Positions 11,582 through 37,700 of a stretch of DNA of 44,683 nt are shown here, piece by piece. The notes below the pieces were generated by a model. It did no database searches, was not told the DNA's origin, and saw only the letters and a list, made by a program, of their open reading frames with translations. Each line of letters starts with the position of its first letter. Positions within the stretch are counted from its first letter, which is position 1. The stretch spans positions 1 through 44,683 of the forward strand of contig PJAB01000086.1 of assembly GCA_002887195.1 (NCBI GenBank), read 5' to 3'. Made by a program: the position numbers and the translations under genes. Origin of the DNA: Chrysochromulina parva. Lineage: Eukaryota > Haptophyta > Prymnesiales > Chrysochromulinaceae.

Positions 11582-14500
11582 ATGGAGACGAAGGTCGTAT
11601 CGGAGCCCAGAGGAGCGGAGGTTGAGAGCGAGCCAGGCGCAGAGTTTCAACCACTCCTGTGGGATGTTGATGTCGGTCGTCGCCTTTGTACGGGGACCGT
11701 GGTTGCATATTTGAGCCTTTTTGCACTCGTCACTTCCTCGCTGCACACCTGCGGCAACCCTGACTCGACTCAGAAGTCAAGCTGCTTTGGTGCTGCTGCG
11801 ATGATGCTGACGGCGTTCGCCATGACCAGGCTGCCATGGCGTCGTGAGAAGAATGCAACCTGGGCGCGCTCTTGTACGCATGTCACCATCTTTGTCTCTG
11901 CTGCTACCAACGTGGCAATCGGTCTGGGCATGTCACCAGTCTGCGTCGACATGATGACAGGGCGGCAACACTACATGCTGCGATGGGTTGAATGGAGCGT
12001 CCTATCGTTCACGATGACCTTTGCGACGGAGTCAGCCGCTGCGGCCAGCAGCAAGACTGCATTGCGCACGGCATTGACACAAAGTGGGAGCACATTGTGT
12101 GGCTTGCTATTGCCTCTTTGCCGCAGCAGGGTCGTGTGGATCGCTGTCGCTATCATCTCATTTGCACTTTACATCTTCATCTTTTGGCGCGTCTACGACC
12201 ATTGGCTGAACTTCCAGAACGCCAAAGCCTACGAGTCGCGAACTTCTATGCGGCGGCGGTCCATGGAGTTGTCTTTTTACCTCATCTCAGCGTGCGCAGC
12301 CACCTGGTCAGGCTTCGTGGTGATCTGGTCCGCCGATGCCCTTTTGTACGGCGTGTTTGGCGTGCCGCGCGGCCCATTCGACTTCTCATTCTACTGGGAC
12401 CTTTTCATCGATGTCTTAGCCAAGCTGGTGTATGCAGATGCCATCGAGTCGAGCGCACCCCTGCTCAAGATCCGCTTCTCTTTGGACGCCCTCGAGACCG
12501 CCGGTGAGCTGCGCCGCCTCTTCGACAAAGCCAACGCGCCGATCTTCGGCGTCGACGACCAGTGCCGCGTTGCCGAGTGGAACGAGAAGGCGACGTCGAT
12601 CACTGGCTACTCGGCACGCGAGACGATCGGGCAGGACCTTGTGGAGCGATTCGTCGCGCCTGAAATTCGCGCTTCCGTACGCCGTGTGCTGCAGAAAGCC
12701 CTGCGCGGGCATGAGACGTCCAACTTTGAGCTAGTCCTTGTCGACAAGGCTGAGAATCGTGTGAGGGTGCTGCTCAACGCGACGACACGTCGCAATGTTG
12801 ATGGCGCCATTGTCGGCGTCGTGGGTATAGGGCAAGACGTCACTGAGATGCGCAAGGTAGAAGACAAGGCGCGCCAGTATGCAGGAGCTTATTCGGAGCG
12901 GCTGTTGCGGAGCTTTGATCTCTCTCTTGATCTCGTCACGCAGATTGATTTTGCCAAGGAGAACGCCCCGTCCATCTATTACGCCTCACCTTCGTTCAGG
13001 GCGGTGCTTGGCCACTCACCCCACGACGTGCTCGGCGACTGCGCCCAGCTGGAGATGCTCTTCTCAACTCAGTCGCTAGAGCTCCTGCGCTTGTTCATTC
13101 AGCAGATGCGCTCCGGCAAAGACGGCGTGACAGTCGAATACCCGATGCTCCACATCGACGGCCACGAAGTGTGGTTTGAGCACAAGGCCTCACGACACCC
13201 AGAAAACCCAGACTGTGTGATCGTGGTTTCACGAGACATCACCGATAGACGAGAAAGGCATCGATTAGAAGTGGAGAACGCACGCCTGTCTGCCGCGCGC
13301 GAGCGCGACATCGAGGCGATGCATTTCCTCTCGCATGAGCTCAAAAACCGCTTCGTGGCGGTGCGGAGCTGCCGTCTTCCTCGCACCCCCGCCTTCGCAT
13401 CGTGCTTCCTCTCCTTTCATAAACCCCTTTTCCAACTCATGCCCGGCCGATATCTCTGACCCATACAATATCTGGCCCATTTCCTGCCCGCGCAGATTCG
13501 TGGTCTCACGGAGAGCGCACAACTTTCTGTCGCCGAGTACGCGCCCAACCTGCTCTCTGCGCCTCACAACGTTCGTGAGGTCTTCTCAGACACGCTCGCT
13601 GGTATCGATCGCGGAATCTTCCTTTGCATGAATCAGGGGATCGCTCTGCAGCTCGCGCACGAAACTTACCGGCCGCACGCGACCCATGTCGACCTGCGCT
13701 CAGCGCTGCAAGCGGCGAGTGGCCGGCGTGCCGAAGTGTCCGTCGATCCAGAGCTGCCTGAGCTCGTACACCTCGACATGAACCTCGTGATGCATGTGCT
13801 CGAAAACTTCATCACGAACGCCGTCAGGTATGGAGCCGTGCAGTCGCGCATCACACTACATGCCAAGCGCCAAGCTGGCAGGCTGTGCTGCGAGGTCATC
13901 AACATGCCTGGGGTGCGCCACCGGGAGGCTCGCACCCGATACGGCGACACAGAAGCCTCCGCTAAGATCGAAGCCGAACTTGCCGAAAACAGTAGTAGGC
14001 TGCAGCGTGATGCGACGAGCACCGGCAACGGCCTGCGCATCGCGCGCAAGTGCACGCTCCTGCTCGGCGGCGAATTGACTCTGCACTTTCTGGCGGACAG
14101 AGTCGTTGCGGCGATCACGTTGCCGCTGAACGTACTTGAAACCAACGTCAGGCTGTCGATCCCAGCCGGGTTGCGAGTAGCATCACTCGACGATGACGAT
14201 GTCATTCGCCGTCTCGATGTACGCTTATTTGCAAAGCTCGGGATCGACGCCCATGTGCGAGGCGCCACGCCGGAAGAGATCCTAGGATTCCCCGCCTTCG
14301 TTGCCAGCCTAGACCCACAACCTCACCTCGTGCTCCTTGACCAAATGCTCGACCATCCTCTCACGGGCGACCCTCTTGCCAGAGGCACGGATCTTGTGGC
14401 GCCTCTGCGCGCCGCCGGCTTCACCGGAAGGATCGCCATCAAATCTGCCAATCAGTCCTCCGCAGAGCGGGCCGAGTACCTCGAGAGCGGTGCTGACGGC

Positions 14501-17500
14501 TCACTTGACAAGGCGCTGCAAGGAGAAGCCTTCGCCCGCGAGCTCGCCGCGATTGTGCACAGGACGACGGCGCAACGCGTCGAGCCCATAGCGGTGAATG
14601 TGCTCGGCGCTCTGATGACCTTTGATGACCTCTGATGACCTCCGATGACCCTCTGATGACCTCTGATGACCTCTGATGACCTCGCTCCATTGGATATCGC
14701 AGGTGAATGTGCTCGGCGCGGTGGACGTGCTCGACGCCAAAGAGCAAGTGAGTCTCTTCCAAACGCGAGCTGCATCCCTCGCCCAAGCAGCCAGTGACCG
14801 CTACGCAGATGGCAGCCTCGACCGCGCGTGGAACTGCGCGCATAAGCTCAAAGCCCTGGCGAGCCTCGTAGGTGCCGTGCCCCTTTCCGAAGCGTGTGAA
14901 GCCCTTCGGTCACTCAAGGGGGCCGCTGCGTGGAGCCAAGGACTCAAGAATCTACATGAGGAGACTCAGCGGGCGCTGATGGGTCTTGCCGCCCTGGGCT
15001 TTCTGGAGGACAGCCCTTTGGCGCCTCTTTGGTGTCCTCACGACTCCCAGTGGCCTCTGTCGAAGGAGCAACTGACGTCTCTCTTGACAGAGGCTGCTGC
15101 GATGCTAGAGGCGCTGCGGCCGTCTCTCTCGTGTCTCTCTTCGGACTTGCCTCTCGACGCGGACGCCCTCATCAACGTGAGGCACCGCCTGCACAAGCTA
15201 GCGGGGGCGTGCGAGACGCTTGGCGCCCAGCGCCTTGGGCAGCGTGCCCGCAAGTACGCGGCCAAAGAAGTGCTCGGTAAGTCGGAGTATGATGATTTGG
15301 AAGCGGTGCTCAGAGCCACTTTTGGAGCACTGGAAGCTTCCAGCTCACGCGCCGCAACCAGCTGCAACGAGACGACGATCGAGACGACGATCGTTCACGA
15401 AGCGCAGCCGACGCTCTCGAAACCGAGAACACTGGATGGTTTCTCCGCGCCTGAGACTCCTAGTACTGGCAAAGAAGTCGAGGATGAATCGGCTGTGAAG
15501 ACCCAACGTTGCACTCGTCATGAGCCTTTTGTATGCGTGGGCATCGATGATGATCCTGTGTGCCGGGTATTGATTCAGATGGTCCTTCAGGAGCTGAGCC
15601 CCGACGTGAGTGTCACGCTGGGCGCGACGCGTAGAGAGCTGCTGTGCGTGGTCGACATGGCGCTCGGTCGCTGCAGTGTGCACATGCGGCCCATTCCATC
15701 GAGCCAGCAGCGCGCCGTCGATCTGATGATCATAGACCAGCATCTGCTCAGTGACGATGGCCACGTGATTTTGGGGACTGAGCTGGCTGCCGATCTGCGG
15801 ACGCAGGGCTTTGAAGGGATCATATGCATCCTGAGTAGCGCCAGCCGCGCAGAGCTCGAAATTCTCGAGGCCCATCCCGCCGTGGACCTGGCACGAGGCA
15901 AAGGCCAGATCACCAGCGAGCTGACCACGGAGCTCAAACGGCACCTCGCGGCGCGGAAGAAGGGTCAGCAGTTCAGCAGCGACGGCAGAGGGAACGGTGG
16001 CATCGCGAGAGGCAGTTGCGGTGGCGGTGCGAACAGTGCCAGTGGATGCGGAAGGGGCGATTGCAGCAGCAGTGGTGGCATCGGCGGTGGCGGCATTGGG
16101 GGCAGCAGTGGGGGATGCAGTGGGGATATTATTGGTGGCAGCGGCGGCAGCGGTGGTTGTGGACATGATCTCCACGTCAGGGCCGATAAGCTGACACACG
16201 AAGACTGCTATGCAGCGCCGTTGCAGCACCTCTTGTCTGACAGCGACTACCTCGCCAGCTCAGCTAAACGAGAACTCGACGGCAAGCGCGACGACGAGAT
16301 TGTCGAGGATGAGCTCTCCATCCCTGTGAATGTGAATGTGAATGTGAATGAGCTCTCCATCCCTGTGAAACTCATGCATCAGCTGCTAGACTCATTGCAA
16401 GAAAGTCTATTGGGCTTTGATGCTCACGGCCTGTCTTGGGCTCACGGCGCAGAGCACATTCACAGACTTTCAGGGGCAGCCGCAGTGCTTGGTCATTACG
16501 AGCTCGTGCACGCCGCACGTCAGCTGGAAGCTGTGCCGACAAGAGAGAGCTTACAGGCCGTGCACAATGCCCTTGACAGTCTTCGGCTTGCCTCTCGCGT
16601 CGACCAGGCGCTGCCATTCGTTCCCACAAGCGCCAACACGTGTGTCAGCTGCCACGAGCCTCTGCTCTGTGATGGACGCTCGTGGCGTCTACAACTCTCA
16701 TGCTCTCACTGCTGCCACTTCGTGTGCATGCTGAAGAGTGTGGAGCTTGGTCACCACGCGTGTCCTCTGTGCACCATGCCTCTCGGGTCTTTGCACCGTG
16801 TGCATTCAGACGAGGCCTTAGAGGAGCTCGTGCCCGCACAGCTGCGGTGCGTGGGTCTCTCTGCCGATCCGTTGTGGCGCAGCTTGCACGGTCACACGTT
16901 TGCGCTGCTGGATGTGGACGCGATATGCCTGGGCGAAACTGAAGAGGAAACGGAGTCGTTCGTTGAAGTCGCAGCTGGGCTTGGAAAATCAACGCCGTGG
17001 CGGCCAGCGGATGCGGTCTTGCTTGACTCACACGTGGGCACGGACAGCGCGGCCGAGCTTGCAGTGAAGCTACGAGCGGCCCACTTTCAAGGCGTTATCT
17101 GCGTGCTGACGGCGCTGCCGCGCGAGGCGTGTCATGCACTCGAAGCAAGCGTCCCCGAAATCGACCTCGTGCTTCGCAAGGGGATCCCGCCGAGACTCCT
17201 CGGAGCTCGCCTGCGGCTCTGCTTAGCGGCCAAGCGCCAAGCAAGAGCCGCCGAAAGCAAAAGAGGCCCGAGCGCTCCAAGTGAGTCATCAGACCACGTC
17301 CAGGAGGCGCGTGCCACAAGTGCTCTGGCTGAGCCTGCAGCGAAAGCAATAGATGTCGAGTACCGCAATGACGTCGAGATGACCTCTGATGTCGCTCTTG
17401 CCACACCTTTGATTCTTGGAAGGGGTGGCCAATCATCTGCGACTGTTGTTGAAGCGATTCACTTGCATCCGCGCGATGAATTGCTTCCAAAGCCCTCAGA

Positions 17501-18953
17501 GGCTTCAGTGCCGATGCGTCTGCAGGAGATCTTCAAGGTAACGGTGGAAGCGCTCGACATCAATACTGGCAAGACCTGGGAAACGGTGCGCTCGACGCTG
17601 CTTCCAGCACTCGAAGAGGCGCTTCTAGCCGAGCACCATTCACGCTACGAGAAGGGGGTGCACAAGCTCTACACTCTCGTGCAGGTGCACGGCCAGCTGG
17701 AGCCTAAGCGCTCCTACTCTATGGCTAGGTCCTACGTGGACGAGATGGGGTTGGAAATCCCCGAAGGTCTTCGCAACAGCGTGCGCCGGCACGTTGAGAC
17801 TCGCGTACTCGCCTTTGGTGCGGTTCTGCGAGTGGTGACGGGTGGGTTCTTGCTGTCCTCTCAGAAACTACCAGAGCTTCTGGATGAGTTCCGATGGGAG
17901 CGTGGTACCGAGCGCGAGAGCATGCACACCCTTCTCGCCGAGCTCTTGAACGCCGTCACCACCTTTCGGGTTGACGAGACACACGTGTTGGTGTCTACCG
18001 AGGACCTCCGGGGAGGGTTAGAGCGGGCCCGTGAGCACTTGTGCCGGGCTTCGCAAAGCATACTCACAGCTCATGGTCAGGCGCTGCCCACTGAGATCAC
18101 GAAACGTGTGAAGGAGGGAATCGAGAGTGTCTGTGCGGCCAGCCTTGCTCGAAGCCTTGCGCCAGAAAGGACGAGTCCAGAGGCGAGTGGTGGGGCTCAA
18201 CATATCAGCGCCGATGCTGCCAGGAATCCTTTGTCCAAAGCGGCAGCAAAGGTTGTCGCACGAAGACCAATTAGCCCACCAGCCAGCGACGCGCAAGGGG
18301 GGCGCTGTGCATCTGGCTCAAGCGAGATGGCGGATGCGGACGGGAGAATGCTGTGGAGCGCGTGCCAGCACGGCAAAGTCGCGTTCATCCGGCAGCTTAT
18401 GAATAGTGGCGTTGAGATTAACACGCCTGTAGAGCACAGCAGGGAGTCGGCACTTCACATTGCCGTGCAATACGGGCAGCTGAAGGTCGTGCAGTGCCTT
18501 CTCAACCATCCAGCCATCGACCCGAATGCAATCGCACCCTACGCTGGCACCCCATTGCACCTTGCCGCGCATAAGGGAGACAAGAAGATGGTTGCGCTGC
18601 TGCTCACGCATAAGGCTGTCGACCCTAACATAGTGAACGAAGAGCTGGCGCGCATGACGCCATTGATGTTTGCTGTGCAGCAAGGTAATATGGGAGTGCT
18701 CAAGTTGCTGCTCAGGCACAAGGCCATACAAGTGAACATGCTGTCGAGCATTGGCTTCAGTGCACTGCATATGGCCGCATACAGTGCGCCTCTCGACGTT
18801 TTACAGTGCTTGCTACAGCACCCGGAAATTCTAGTGGACCTGCCAGCACACAATGGCACTCGACCACTGCAAGTTGCAATGTCTGAGGGCAGAGAAGATG
18901 CCATCCAGCTATTACTCGAAGCTGGTGCGGCACCGTGTTGCATCGTGGACTAG
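11582..18953 (+). CDS. Histidine-kinase rhodopsin with multi-step phosphorelay, RING and ankyrin repeats
   Basis: Model: exons 11582-13360, 13496-14593, 14703-18953, all phase 0, 2375 residues. Rhodopsin, about 35-290: helix C has RWVEW (R134, E137 at the counterion site), helix G has DVLAK (D277, K281 for retinal). A hydrophobic segment before helix A gives eight TM segments. PAS1 is about 310-425, PAS2 about 440-560. The kinase has H585 in SHELKNR, N701 in the N box and a Gly-rich G2 box (TGNGLRIA), but no clear D-x-G-x-G. REC1 is about 819-947 (D875, K932). HPt domains are centred on H1006, H1123 and H1546. REC2 is about 1235-1365 (D1304, K1359). A RING-H2 finger lies at 1606-1649 (C-x2-C-x16-C-x-H-x2-H-x2-C-x11-C-x2-C). 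REC3 is about 1674-1800 (D1734, K1785). About six ankyrin repeats span 2165-2370. Likely a membrane light sensor feeding a phosphorelay; outputs are inference. Confidence 0.85.
13361..13495 (+). other. Intron 1 of the rhodopsin kinase
   Basis: 135 bases, GTGCGG...CGCAG, phase 0. It falls just after the phosphoacceptor helix; removal gives SHELKNRFVA|IRGLTES, a normal HisKA continuation. Unlike several other introns here, its start does not resemble the downstream exon. Confidence 0.8.
14594..14702 (+). other. Intron 2 of the rhodopsin kinase, repeat-built
   Basis: 109 bases, phase 0. GGTGAATGTGCTCGGCGC occurs exactly at 14593-14610 (intron start) and 14702-14719 (start of exon 3). Between them lie seven copies of a roughly 10-base unit, TGATGACCTC with variants, then CCATTGGATATCGCAG. 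Confidence 0.85.
16010..16165. repeat. Gly/Ser-rich low-complexity stretch in the rhodopsin kinase
   Basis: GGC/AGC-rich simple sequence encoding a Gly-Ser-Cys linker between REC2 and HPt3. Further on (about 16311-16369) GAGCTCTCCATCCCTGTGAA is duplicated around a GTGAAT tandem run. Confidence 0.75.
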
Positions 18954-34762: not shown

Positions 34763-37700
34763 TCACAGCTCCTTCGAGGCCTTTCGTGCTGCCGGCTGCC
34801 GGAGCTGGATCTCGACCATCACCCAGCCTGTGATCGCGTCTTTGGACGCGTCCTTATCGTACTGGTCGAGCCACAACTTGAGCTGATGCGGCTTGCCATC
34901 AGCATAGCGCGACAAGTCGAGCAGGCACTCGCCGAGGTAGTCATCCGAGCCGTGCCGGTCCCAATCGAAGCACACGAGGTGGAGCAGGGCACGCTCGCTC
35001 ACGAGCGGCGCAAGTCCCCAGTCAACCTTGTTCCACTTGGGCTGGAGCGTCTCATGGCAGGTCTCCGAGCGCCACATGTGCTCGCACGTGAGCTGCGCCT
35101 CGGGGCACCACACGTGGATGTCGCAGTACGGGTCCGAGGCGCCGTTGTCATCGGCCGCGAGCAAGTCAGCCCCGTGGAGGAGCTTGAGCGTCAGAGAGTG
35201 CGACGTGTGCTCGCGCGGCACGCTGCCAATGCTCTCGCCCACACCCTGCGCGCCGCGTCCAAAGAATTGGAAGATCTTACCCTCGCGCACGCGGTGGCTG
35301 CCCATGCGCTTGCGCACGGCCTCGGCGTACCTCGCTGCCGACAAGTCGTACACGGACGGCGCGCTCGGCGCGCGAGCGAGCACGCTTCGCCAAAAGGTAC
35401 CGATTTGGACCTCGTCGCCGAGCGCTGGCGCTGGCGCTGGTGGCCCGACGCCCTTGAGCACGTTCTTGGTAGTTGGCACGGCCCCTTTGCCTGTGTTGGC
35501 GAGCCCCTTGGACATGACGCGCCCCGGGGTCGGTGGATCCTCCGAAGGCCCCGCTGCGCTTGCCTTGCTGGGATTGGGGGGGGCTCCGCCTCCGCCTCCG
35601 CCTCCGCCTCCGCCTCCTCCTCTGCCTCCGCCTCCGCCTCCGCCTCCATCTCCGCCTCCACCTCCGCCTCCGCCTCCGCCTCCGCCTCCTCCTGCGTCGT
35701 CATCGTCGATGAGCTTAAGCACCATGCGCACCTGCCCGCTGACCGGCTCGCCTTGGCGATCGAGCGGCGCCTGCACTTTGAACCACGCGTCGAGCTCGCC
35801 GGCGCCGTCGTGCGCCTGCAGCGCGCTCAGCGGCAGTAGCACCTCGCCCAGGTAGTCGTCTTTTTTGCCGAAATCGTAGTCAAAGATCACCACGTGCAAC
35901 AGAGAGTCGATGGACGCGAACGGGATCTCCCGCGGTCCATCCTGGGTCCACTGCGGGCTGCACGTCTTTTCCACCGTCGTGGTCGACCAGGCAGATTGCT
36001 CCAGATGCACCGAGCAGTACGGATCCGAGGTGCCCTGCGTCCGCTTGGGGCCAAACAAGCCGTCTCGGCTCGGCTCGTCCGCGGCGATGAGATCTCGTGC
36101 CTCCTTGATGACCATGCGCAGCTTGCCCAGTGGCCGGGCAAGAGCTACGATCTTATCCTCGGGCCTGCCTCCACCCATCGTCCGCTCCTTGCTGAGGGCA
36201 TCGGTGCTGCGGTGCCCACTTAGCTCGGTGAGCAACGTCCCCTTGAGCTCCTCGAGGACGTCGGTTGCGCGGTCCGGCTTCCAGCGCTCGCCATGGGCCT
36301 CGAGAGCCACCGTCAGGTGCACCTCGCCCGTCACAGCTCCTTCGATGCTCGCTGGCTGCTCGAGGCGAAACCAGTCTTCGATGGGCGCTCCGCCGGGCAC
36401 GAGCCCGCACAGATCCAGCTTGACGTCGCCCATGAATGTGTGCGCGTTCATATTGTTCTTGTCGAACATGACCAGGTGAAGCAGCTCGTTGGTCGCCTCG
36501 ACATCGAAGATGGCGCTCTCATTCCAAGTCGGGCTGAGCGTTTTTTCCTTGCATGTGGTGCGGTAGTAGCGTCCGCTGGCCTCACGCCCGTGACCCACCC
36601 ACAGCTCGCAGAACGGGTCGGACGTGCCGCCCAAGTCTTTAGCCGCCAGTTCCCGCCCACGCCCGATGGTCACGCGGATCGTGGCGATGGCAGAATGGGC
36701 CGCAAGTCGCGCTGGCGGCGACGACGAGGCGCTGTAGTCCGTCTTGGGGCCAAATAGACCTCTTGGGTGGTGCTTGCCGTGTCGGCGCGCCTCGAGCGCG
36801 GCTGTGCGCTCCTCACGTAGGAGCGTCAGGTGCACTATGCGGTCGAATGGGCCAACAGCGGCGGCGCTCTTGGCGCGAGAAGCGTCTTTTGCGCCCTTGT
36901 CGCTGGTCGTTGGCGGCCACTGGCTGGTGGGATCCGGAATGACGAGCTCGGGATGGCGCTCCCGCAGCGCGCGATCGAGCCGGTCCATGTCGGTGTGCAC
37001 CTCACGTAGAGCGGCCGGGCTGAGAGGACCGCGCGCCGCCTCGAGCACGTTCCACGGGCTGTATGAGTGCCCGCCATGGCGCCCAAAGTCGGGCCCAGGT
37101 GAGTAGCCATGCCGCATCCATCCCGGACGAGGGTCGGGCAAATGCGCGGGCCAGTGGCTGGCATGCTGCGGATCGTACGAAGACGGCGGCGGCCTGTCGT
37201 AGCCGGCGGACGGCGGCGGCATGTAGGCCTGCCAGGCGGGCGGCTGCATTGGCCTGCCTGCTAGCCGATGTGGCGAGCCGACGCGCGGCGGCACGCCTAA
37301 GCGCAGCGGCGATGGCTGGCTGCCGGTAGGCTGCCAGCGCGCGGGCATCGAGTGGGGTCTCCAGTGGGCCGAAGGGCTCCAATGCACCTGAAGAGGGAGG
37401 TCATCAGAGGTCATCAGTGGCAATCATTCATCATCTCGAGTGGAGTGGGGTCTACAGTGTGCCGAGGGGCCAATATGCACTCAGTGGCAATCAGTGTCCA
37501 TCAGTGTCCATCAGTGTCCATCAGTGTCAATCAGGGGCCAATATGCACCTCCATGTGCAGTAAGACATCAGTGAGGACGCCACGATACTCGAGCTGGAAT
37601 GGCCCATGAAGCGAGCCAAACTCGCGCACGTCGACGAGCGCGACCACACACCGTCCGAGCGACTGCGGCATGGCGCCGCCGCCGCCCTCCCGAACCGATG

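Follow-up and report, generated by a model that had tools for sequence, protein, structure and literature searches.

A candidate rhodopsin-kinase-like photoreceptor with a multi-step relay and a RING/ankyrin tail in Chrysochromulina parva

Positions 11582-18953 of the forward strand of contig PJAB01000086.1 from the haptophyte Chrysochromulina parva (assembly GCA_002887195.1; the whole contig, 44,683 nucleotides, is the window analyzed here) carry a predicted spliced frame of 2375 codons, which we read, at a probability of about 0.6, as a hybrid histidine kinase that is anchored in the membrane and senses through a diverged type-1-rhodopsin-like domain, that is, a photoreceptor resembling the histidine kinase rhodopsins (HKRs), with a His-Asp-His-Asp-His tail. 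An initial annotation had proposed a one-chain light-sensing phosphorelay running from a rhodopsin through two PAS domains, a kinase, and alternating receivers (REC) and histidine phosphotransfer (HPt) modules to a RING finger and ankyrin repeats. That order holds in outline, with the rhodopsin-like sensor and every later module in a single frame, but the third receiver is degenerate and the proposed ubiquitin link is speculative. Matches above the curated Pfam cut-off were obtained for the two PAS domains, HATPase_c, the three Hpt modules and the ankyrin repeats; the rhodopsin, the receivers, DHp and the RING are identified by residue patterns and sub-threshold matches, without curated-level matches, and the rhodopsin is the weakest part of the assignment. 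The features of the frame are as follows.

11582-13360 (+): exon 1, residues 1-593, with the rhodopsin-like domain, PAS1, PAS2 and the kinase phospho-His box (open frame; relative P0001)
11663-12481 (+): rhodopsin-like membrane domain, residues 28-300 (motif register and conservation; helices in a low-confidence model)
12497-12853 (+): PAS1, residues 306-424 (Pfam PAS_4/PAS)
12929-13255 (+): PAS2, residues about 450-558 (Pfam PAS_3 at 467-539)
13334-13336 (+): codon of H585 in SHELKN, candidate autophosphorylated histidine (motif alone)
13361-13495 (+): predicted intron 1, 135 nt, splitting the presumed DHp region
13496-14593 (+): exon 2, with the end of DHp, the ATPase domain and REC1 (HATPase_c above cut-off)
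13754-14131 (+): HATPase_c (CA) domain, N701 in the N box (Pfam 7.2e-7, above cut-off)
14168-14566 (+): REC1, acidic D825 region, acceptor D875, S910, K932 (Response_reg 1.1e-4, below cut-off)
14594-14702 (+): predicted intron 2, 109 nt, introner-like, with a decamer array (14613-14680) between two perfect 18-bp copies
14703-18953 (+): exon 3, residues 960-2375, HPt1 to ankyrin tail (open frame; relatives P0004 and P0005)
14718-15005 (+): HPt1, H1006 by motif (Pfam Hpt, above cut-off)
15060-15335 (+): HPt2, H1123 by motif (Pfam Hpt, above cut-off)
15528-15953 (+): REC2, D1241 region, D1304, S1338, K1359 (Response_reg 0.08, below cut-off)
16362-16616 (+): HPt3, H1546 by motif (Pfam Hpt 6.2e-7, above cut-off)
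16641-16772 (+): RING-H2 finger, C1606-C1649, C-x2-C-x16-C-x-H-x2-H-x2-C-x11-C-x2-C (pattern; weak profile match)
16839-17240 (+): REC3, degenerate, S1679-A-D where the acidic pair would stand, with D1734, T1762 and K1785 retained
17523-18155 (+): module of residues about 1900-2110, probably helical, with no annotation and no Pfam match
18333-18935 (+): ankyrin repeats, residues about 2170-2370 (Ank_2 1.8e-28, above cut-off)

The spliced frame and its relatives

The frame (11582-13360, 13496-14593 and 14703-18953 joined) opens with an ATG at 11582 and closes with a stop codon ending at 18953, which bears out the single 2375-residue chain first annotated; H585, N701, DVLAK (D277-K281) and RWVEW (134-138) stand in the translation at the positions given to them then. 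The true start is uncertain because the frame is already open for ten codons 5' of this ATG. Both predicted introns are GT-AG and phase 0, and their removal leaves the frame open throughout; intron 1 was chosen among 11 listed in-frame GT-AG pairs and intron 2 among 6. In intron 2, the donor GT starts at base 2 of the left 18-bp copy and the acceptor AG ends on base 1 of the right one, so that splicing would restore one copy exactly, and the intron is structured like a precise insertion.

Protein relatives were sought by scoring the 8000 candidates with most words in common; P0002, listed with '-' as its source and 99-100% identical, was taken as the window's own prediction and dropped. Exon 1 has a relative in P0001 (637 aa; 96-97% identity), whose translation finishes on almost the same residues as the window frame; exon 3 has two, P0004 at 99% identity and P0005 at 93%, the latter over the C-terminal part only. 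Residues kept in P0005 number 82/82 in HPt3, 41/44 in the RING, 125/134 in REC3, 201/211 in the helical module and 194/201 in the ankyrin repeats, and fewer, 70/94, in the linker at 1806-1899, as expected of a translated, constrained protein.

Two points count against a single chain: both junctions are predicted splicing, and no long relative turned up at E 0.01 among 4197 candidates measuring 0.55-1.75 times its length. It is nevertheless very unlikely that two or three head-to-tail genes (rhodopsin-PAS-PAS; kinase-REC; HPt to ankyrin) have been joined into a frame of our own construction. Separate genes would agree with the existence of database proteins for exon 1 and exon 3 individually, though these are seemingly single-frame predictions, but exon 1 stops right past the H box, which the chosen junction retains, and exon 2 continues into the ATPase domain; moreover, both junctions are phase-0 GT-AG, intron 2 combines a genome-wide repeat with an exact duplication, and the gaps are merely 135 and 109 nt.

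The rhodopsin-like sensor domain

The N-terminal domain carries R134, E137 and W138 in helix C, W242, F245 and W249 in helix F, and D277 and K281 in helix G, K281 being a candidate Schiff-base lysine. The bacteriorhodopsin counterparts are R82, D85 and W86; W182, Y185 and W189; and D212 and K216. The motifs R-x2-E-W, W-x2-F-x3-W and D-x3-K follow one another at a spacing near that of bacteriorhodopsin, an arrangement found in 0 of 300,000 residue shuffles (the pattern having been picked after the sequence was viewed), and all eight signature residues are unchanged in P0003, a distant relative under 41% identical (36-40% over the domain, varying by alignment). When the three-row family was realigned with 14 rhodopsins by hhalign at full length and blind to the motifs, all three came into register. 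The local hhalign match, which covers only the helix C motif of the three, scored 23.8, exceeding both the best of 60 column shuffles (22.8) and the reversed family (13.9). As a single sequence the window domain scored 19.8, where six other membrane domains from the genome gave 11.6-17.2. L029 and L030 were omitted from the rhodopsin profile, their two genomes being already present as L031 and L032. The distance from E137 to K281, 144, falls within the range of 128-188 computed from the table in PMC7693036, where D85, D212 and K216 are also given and where the OtRh, OlRh, BgRh, MspRh and MpuRh1 rows likewise have Glu at the position-85 equivalent.

A number of observations speak against a rhodopsin. 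The Bac_rhodopsin model (PF01036) does not match the N-terminal domain, although it detects the rhodopsin on contig C232 of the same genome; NCBIfam returned nothing for the N-terminal 300 residues, and no rhodopsin appeared among PDB sequence matches of the domain, searched as single sequence or profile. The hhalign probability of the family against rhodopsins is only 3% (P 0.014), and P0003 as a single sequence scored 16.3, below the best decoy at 17.2. HMMER with filters off fails to separate the window domain or P0003 from decoys, since the decoy L021_TM1 ranked first, P0003 second and the window domain fifth of 8. Position 89 is occupied by L141, and the table in PMC7693036 shows no Leu there. 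Structure prediction did draw helices, at residues 29-57, 61-82, 91-114, 132-152, 159-168, 183-215, 223-258, 268-290 and 292-312 (nine), with two strands of 2 residues each near 121-130, but the mean AlphaFold confidence (pLDDT) is low, at 42.7, and the 50 rows listed by a VIA fold comparison of this model were helical bundles, 11 of them G-protein-coupled receptors and none a microbial rhodopsin. With model confidence so low the comparison is uninformative on the fold, and that the modelled helices would fit an extra N-terminal helix ahead of the seven is a hint only.

These observations would suit a membrane sensor of another kind, or a relic that does not bind retinal, in an ordinary multi-step hybrid kinase responding to a chemical or redox cue through the membrane domain or the PAS domains. 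That alternative would agree with the lack of profile-level similarity to rhodopsins, with the decoys that equalled or beat the window domain or P0003 in two comparisons, with the two PAS domains as alternative sensors, and with other kinases of the genome that have hydrophobic N-terminal stretches by eye and in which the rhodopsin pattern was not noticed. It leaves unexplained the lysine, counterion and pocket positions, which are ordered and invariant in the distant P0003, and the profile alignment in register, and we regard it as unlikely. The rhodopsin first annotated stands, then, on signature residues in rhodopsin register, while the expected Bac_rhodopsin match was searched for and is missing. 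A type-1 rhodopsin origin of the domain is, in our judgement, very probable, and binding of retinal by the present-day domain, judged from its residues, somewhat less so, though still likely. Should the sensor be a rhodopsin, it has diverged too far for the standard profile to recognize it.

The sensor has no genome paralogue at E 0.01, and two extra genome matches to the P0003 query at E 0.35 were taken as chance. Viral contigs searched with the rhodopsin alignment gave 29 pattern matches, none confirmed. The C232 rhodopsin (L001:1483-2145), the one other in the genome, is xanthorhodopsin-like by best PDB match and 50% identical to one on a metagenome-assembled contig assigned to Legionella.

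Relay modules, RING finger and ankyrin tail

Both PAS regions first annotated are matched above cut-off (PAS_4 at 2.5e-23). Among PDB chains, the PAS region at 12497-12853 is matched best by the C-terminal PAS repeats of plant phytochromes, those of phytochrome B in two stretches (E 1.8e-23); unlike in phytochromes, no bilin domain was seen in the window protein. The kinase is borne out by its HATPase_c match and not by HisKA, which finds no match even on the spliced DHp stretch, a point against the preferred reading, so that the phospho-His box with H585 is assigned by the SHELKN motif only. Kinase and receiver lie in one chain, HATPase_c and REC1 (weak match, key residues) sharing an exon, and their continuity with the rhodopsin-like domain depends on predicted splicing.

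All three HPt segments first annotated were confirmed by Pfam Hpt above cut-off (2.6e-15 for the exon). The three REC-like segments fare differently: the acidic pair, acceptor Asp, Ser/Thr and Lys are complete in REC1 and REC2, whereas REC3 has lost the acidic pair, and Pfam matches are below cut-off or, for REC3, absent. REC2 is 37% identical to a stretch on contig C1673 (E 7.5e-19, genome search), and REC3 is matched by the NCBIfam RstA regulator model at 7.2e-6, far under that model's cut-off. In an alignment of seven receivers (the three of the window with stretches from L021, L022 (two) and L025; the genome search lists 15 rows, not all receivers), ten columns are invariant, including the acceptor Asp and Lys, and six of the seven keep the acidic pair; the exception is REC3, whose P0005 equivalent, S-T-D, lacks it too. 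Since the pair is missing, REC3 is probably a pseudo-receiver and the phosphorelay may stop at HPt3. NCBIfam also gave below-cut-off matches to ArcB and TorS in the window protein.

In described HKRs the attached kinase is under light control, and light is said to inhibit it (PMC12558739). In the window protein, retinal would sit at K281 with E137 as counterion, and its isomerization by light would trigger a change that is relayed from helix G via the two PAS domains to the DHp helices, altering autophosphorylation of H585. Phosphate could then pass from H585 to D875 (REC1), to H1006 or H1123 (HPt1/2), to D1304 (REC2) and to H1546 (HPt3), within a chain or between subunits, and HPt3 might also hand it to soluble regulators. 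REC3 would probably serve as a docking or structural module, and the output would most likely be scaffolding and partner recruitment through the RING, helical module and ankyrin repeats.

The initial annotation had the RING and ankyrin repeats replace a cyclase and possibly connect light to ubiquitin. No cyclase was found, and the ankyrin repeats are matched above cut-off; the RING-H2 assignment is carried by eight zinc ligands and weak PDB matches and falls short in Pfam, and the ubiquitin connection is the speculative part, with putative E2-contact residues departing from those expected. The ligands are in C3H2C3 order, at a spacing found in 0 of 20,000 shuffles; zf-RING_2 matches at 0.043, with 14.5 bits against a cut-off of 27.3. 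Among the 14 sequences listed in a PDB search with the RING segment (E up to 10; best 7.9e-4), 11 were RING fingers, ubiquitin ligases (E3) or TRAF6, counting EL5 and TRAF6, which we take to be RING proteins, and the remaining 3 were other proteins. The residue beside the second ligand (C2), a Trp before C7 and the residue after C8 have a role in contact with the ubiquitin-conjugating enzyme (E2); here Ser stands beside C2 (Ile in P0005), no Trp precedes C7 and Thr follows C8. The finger thus resembles the RING-H2 ligases Arkadia, RNF38 and RNF24 in zinc-ligand spacing and weak sequence matches, and differs from them in scoring under the Pfam cut-off, in lying inside a kinase chain and in these contact residues.

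An output through ubiquitin is possible, with the zinc ligands as its only support. A RING that functions as an E3, with the relay gating ubiquitination of ankyrin-bound substrates in a light- and phosphorelay-controlled ligase, would fit the ligands and their spacing, the RING proteins among the PDB matches, the ankyrin tail and the position of the finger between HPt3 and REC3, but the sub-threshold Pfam score, the altered contact residues and the missing acidic pair of the adjacent REC3 make it doubtful. Quite improbable is a scheme in which, within a single chain, a light-set His-Asp-His-Asp-His relay would allosterically switch a RING ligase whose substrates are held on its own ankyrins, leading from light to proteolysis with no second messenger.

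The preferred reading, an HKR-like photoreceptor, is set beside known HKRs (COP5/HKR1, COP6/2c-Cyclop, Ot-HKR) by its rhodopsin-like membrane domain, its candidate Schiff-base Lys with an Asp four residues earlier in helix G, the signature residues of helices C and F, and the fused histidine kinase and receiver. It departs from them in having three HPts, three RECs, a RING, the helical module and ankyrin repeats and in lacking a detected cyclase, and it is called HKR-like rather than HKR because PF01036, which finds the C232 rhodopsin, misses its sensor. In the literature consulted, HKRs combine their kinase with receivers and in some cases with a cyclase or another domain; PMC7693036 lists fusions of histidine kinase and response regulator with cyclase, SAM, SMC_N, transposase, TPR, bromodomain, proteasome ATPase (RPT1) and others, together with a single SPRY fusion that lacks a kinase and is noted as ubiquitin-related. 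Neither HPt nor ankyrin occurs in the main text of that paper, which was the only one found in the open-licence literature to mention both enzymerhodopsins and a ubiquitin ligase. The combination of rhodopsin with an HPt/ankyrin/RING hybrid kinase was not found in that literature, which proves no absence from print, nor was a histidine kinase rhodopsin with ankyrin. A light receptor that carries its own relay of several steps and ends in a RING/ankyrin output would couple light to cell behaviour in a new way and would be a natural starting point for designing light-controlled recruitment of proteins; should its sensor be a rhodopsin, kinases of this type may be undercounted among protists that have been poorly sampled.

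Genome context and the decamer-repeat introns

The assembly (45.07 Mb in 2199 contigs, the window being contig C86) yields seven Hpt matches in six frames, three in the window gene, two on C72, one on C252 and one on C84, in a frame of 183 aa. PsaA and PsaB were sought as well, with no match. By eye, C72 reads REC-HPt-HPt around its matches and C252, with one profile match, ATPase-REC-HPt, so that chained HPts are not unique to the window gene. The genome thus holds multi-step hybrid kinases, to whose design the window gene adds a rhodopsin-like sensor at one end and a RING/ankyrin tail at the other. The chaining of REC and HPt, put forward earlier as part of a new architecture, is accordingly not new in itself; the new part is its combination with a rhodopsin-like sensor, RING and ankyrin repeats. 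The window protein has kinase, REC and HPt in one chain, as do ArcB/TorS-type hybrid kinases and the genes on C72 and C252; it is set apart from them by a second and third REC, three HPts, a RING, ankyrin repeats and a rhodopsin-like sensor. Several other frames combining histidine kinase and REC have different hydrophobic N-terminal stretches, judged by eye.

Such frames in L019, L020, L021, L022 and L025 have diverged receivers, with VD-x-ALG conserved in several; 3 of 8 scanned match Response_reg, all below cut-off. The minus-strand frame at 3446-6034 of L019 ends in a receiver preceded by a long run of near-identical SVKAHAxTQAxCDxExxKL repeats. C1106 (L024) was considered as a second kinase-REC-RING fusion and rejected, the receiver frame ending in a stop and the RING lying in a coiled-coil-like frame taken as a separate gene. 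The helical module recurs at about 110-127 aa and 26-29% identity on C1230, C1322, C707, C1627 and C287 (three of them read), in proteins that otherwise differ.

The array in intron 2 is built of CTCTGATGAC decamers, which also form arrays at 37400-37416 (-) of the window, beside that at 14594-14702 (+), and in L052, L054, L068, L071, L072, L074, L075, L081, L082, L085 and L086. The 21-mer CTCTGATGACCTCTGATGACC has 1090 exact places in the assembly and its reversed control 0, counted per overlapping place so that one array is counted several times. In a first set, 4 of 11 arrays had flanking direct duplications scoring at least 18, some random controls for this set having overlapped themselves and scored high; in a second, 13 of 30 scored at least 12, against 43 of 840 mismatched pairs. 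At least three of these 13 duplications consist of the repeat unit itself, and the other ten are 16-29 bp, one 48; several arrays have AG at the right duplication copy. Some earlier introner families have target-site duplications of 3-9 bp (PMC9860276), and those of the decamer family are longer. The decamer arrays form a genome-wide family of introns or intron-like inserts, introner-like in kind, their intron status having been judged from frames for a few, and the family bears on the origin of spliceosomal introns. Lastly, among ten frames of neighbouring genes scanned with Pfam, five matched, all of them ordinary: LRR, TPR, C2, EF-hand and DUF1538 proteins.

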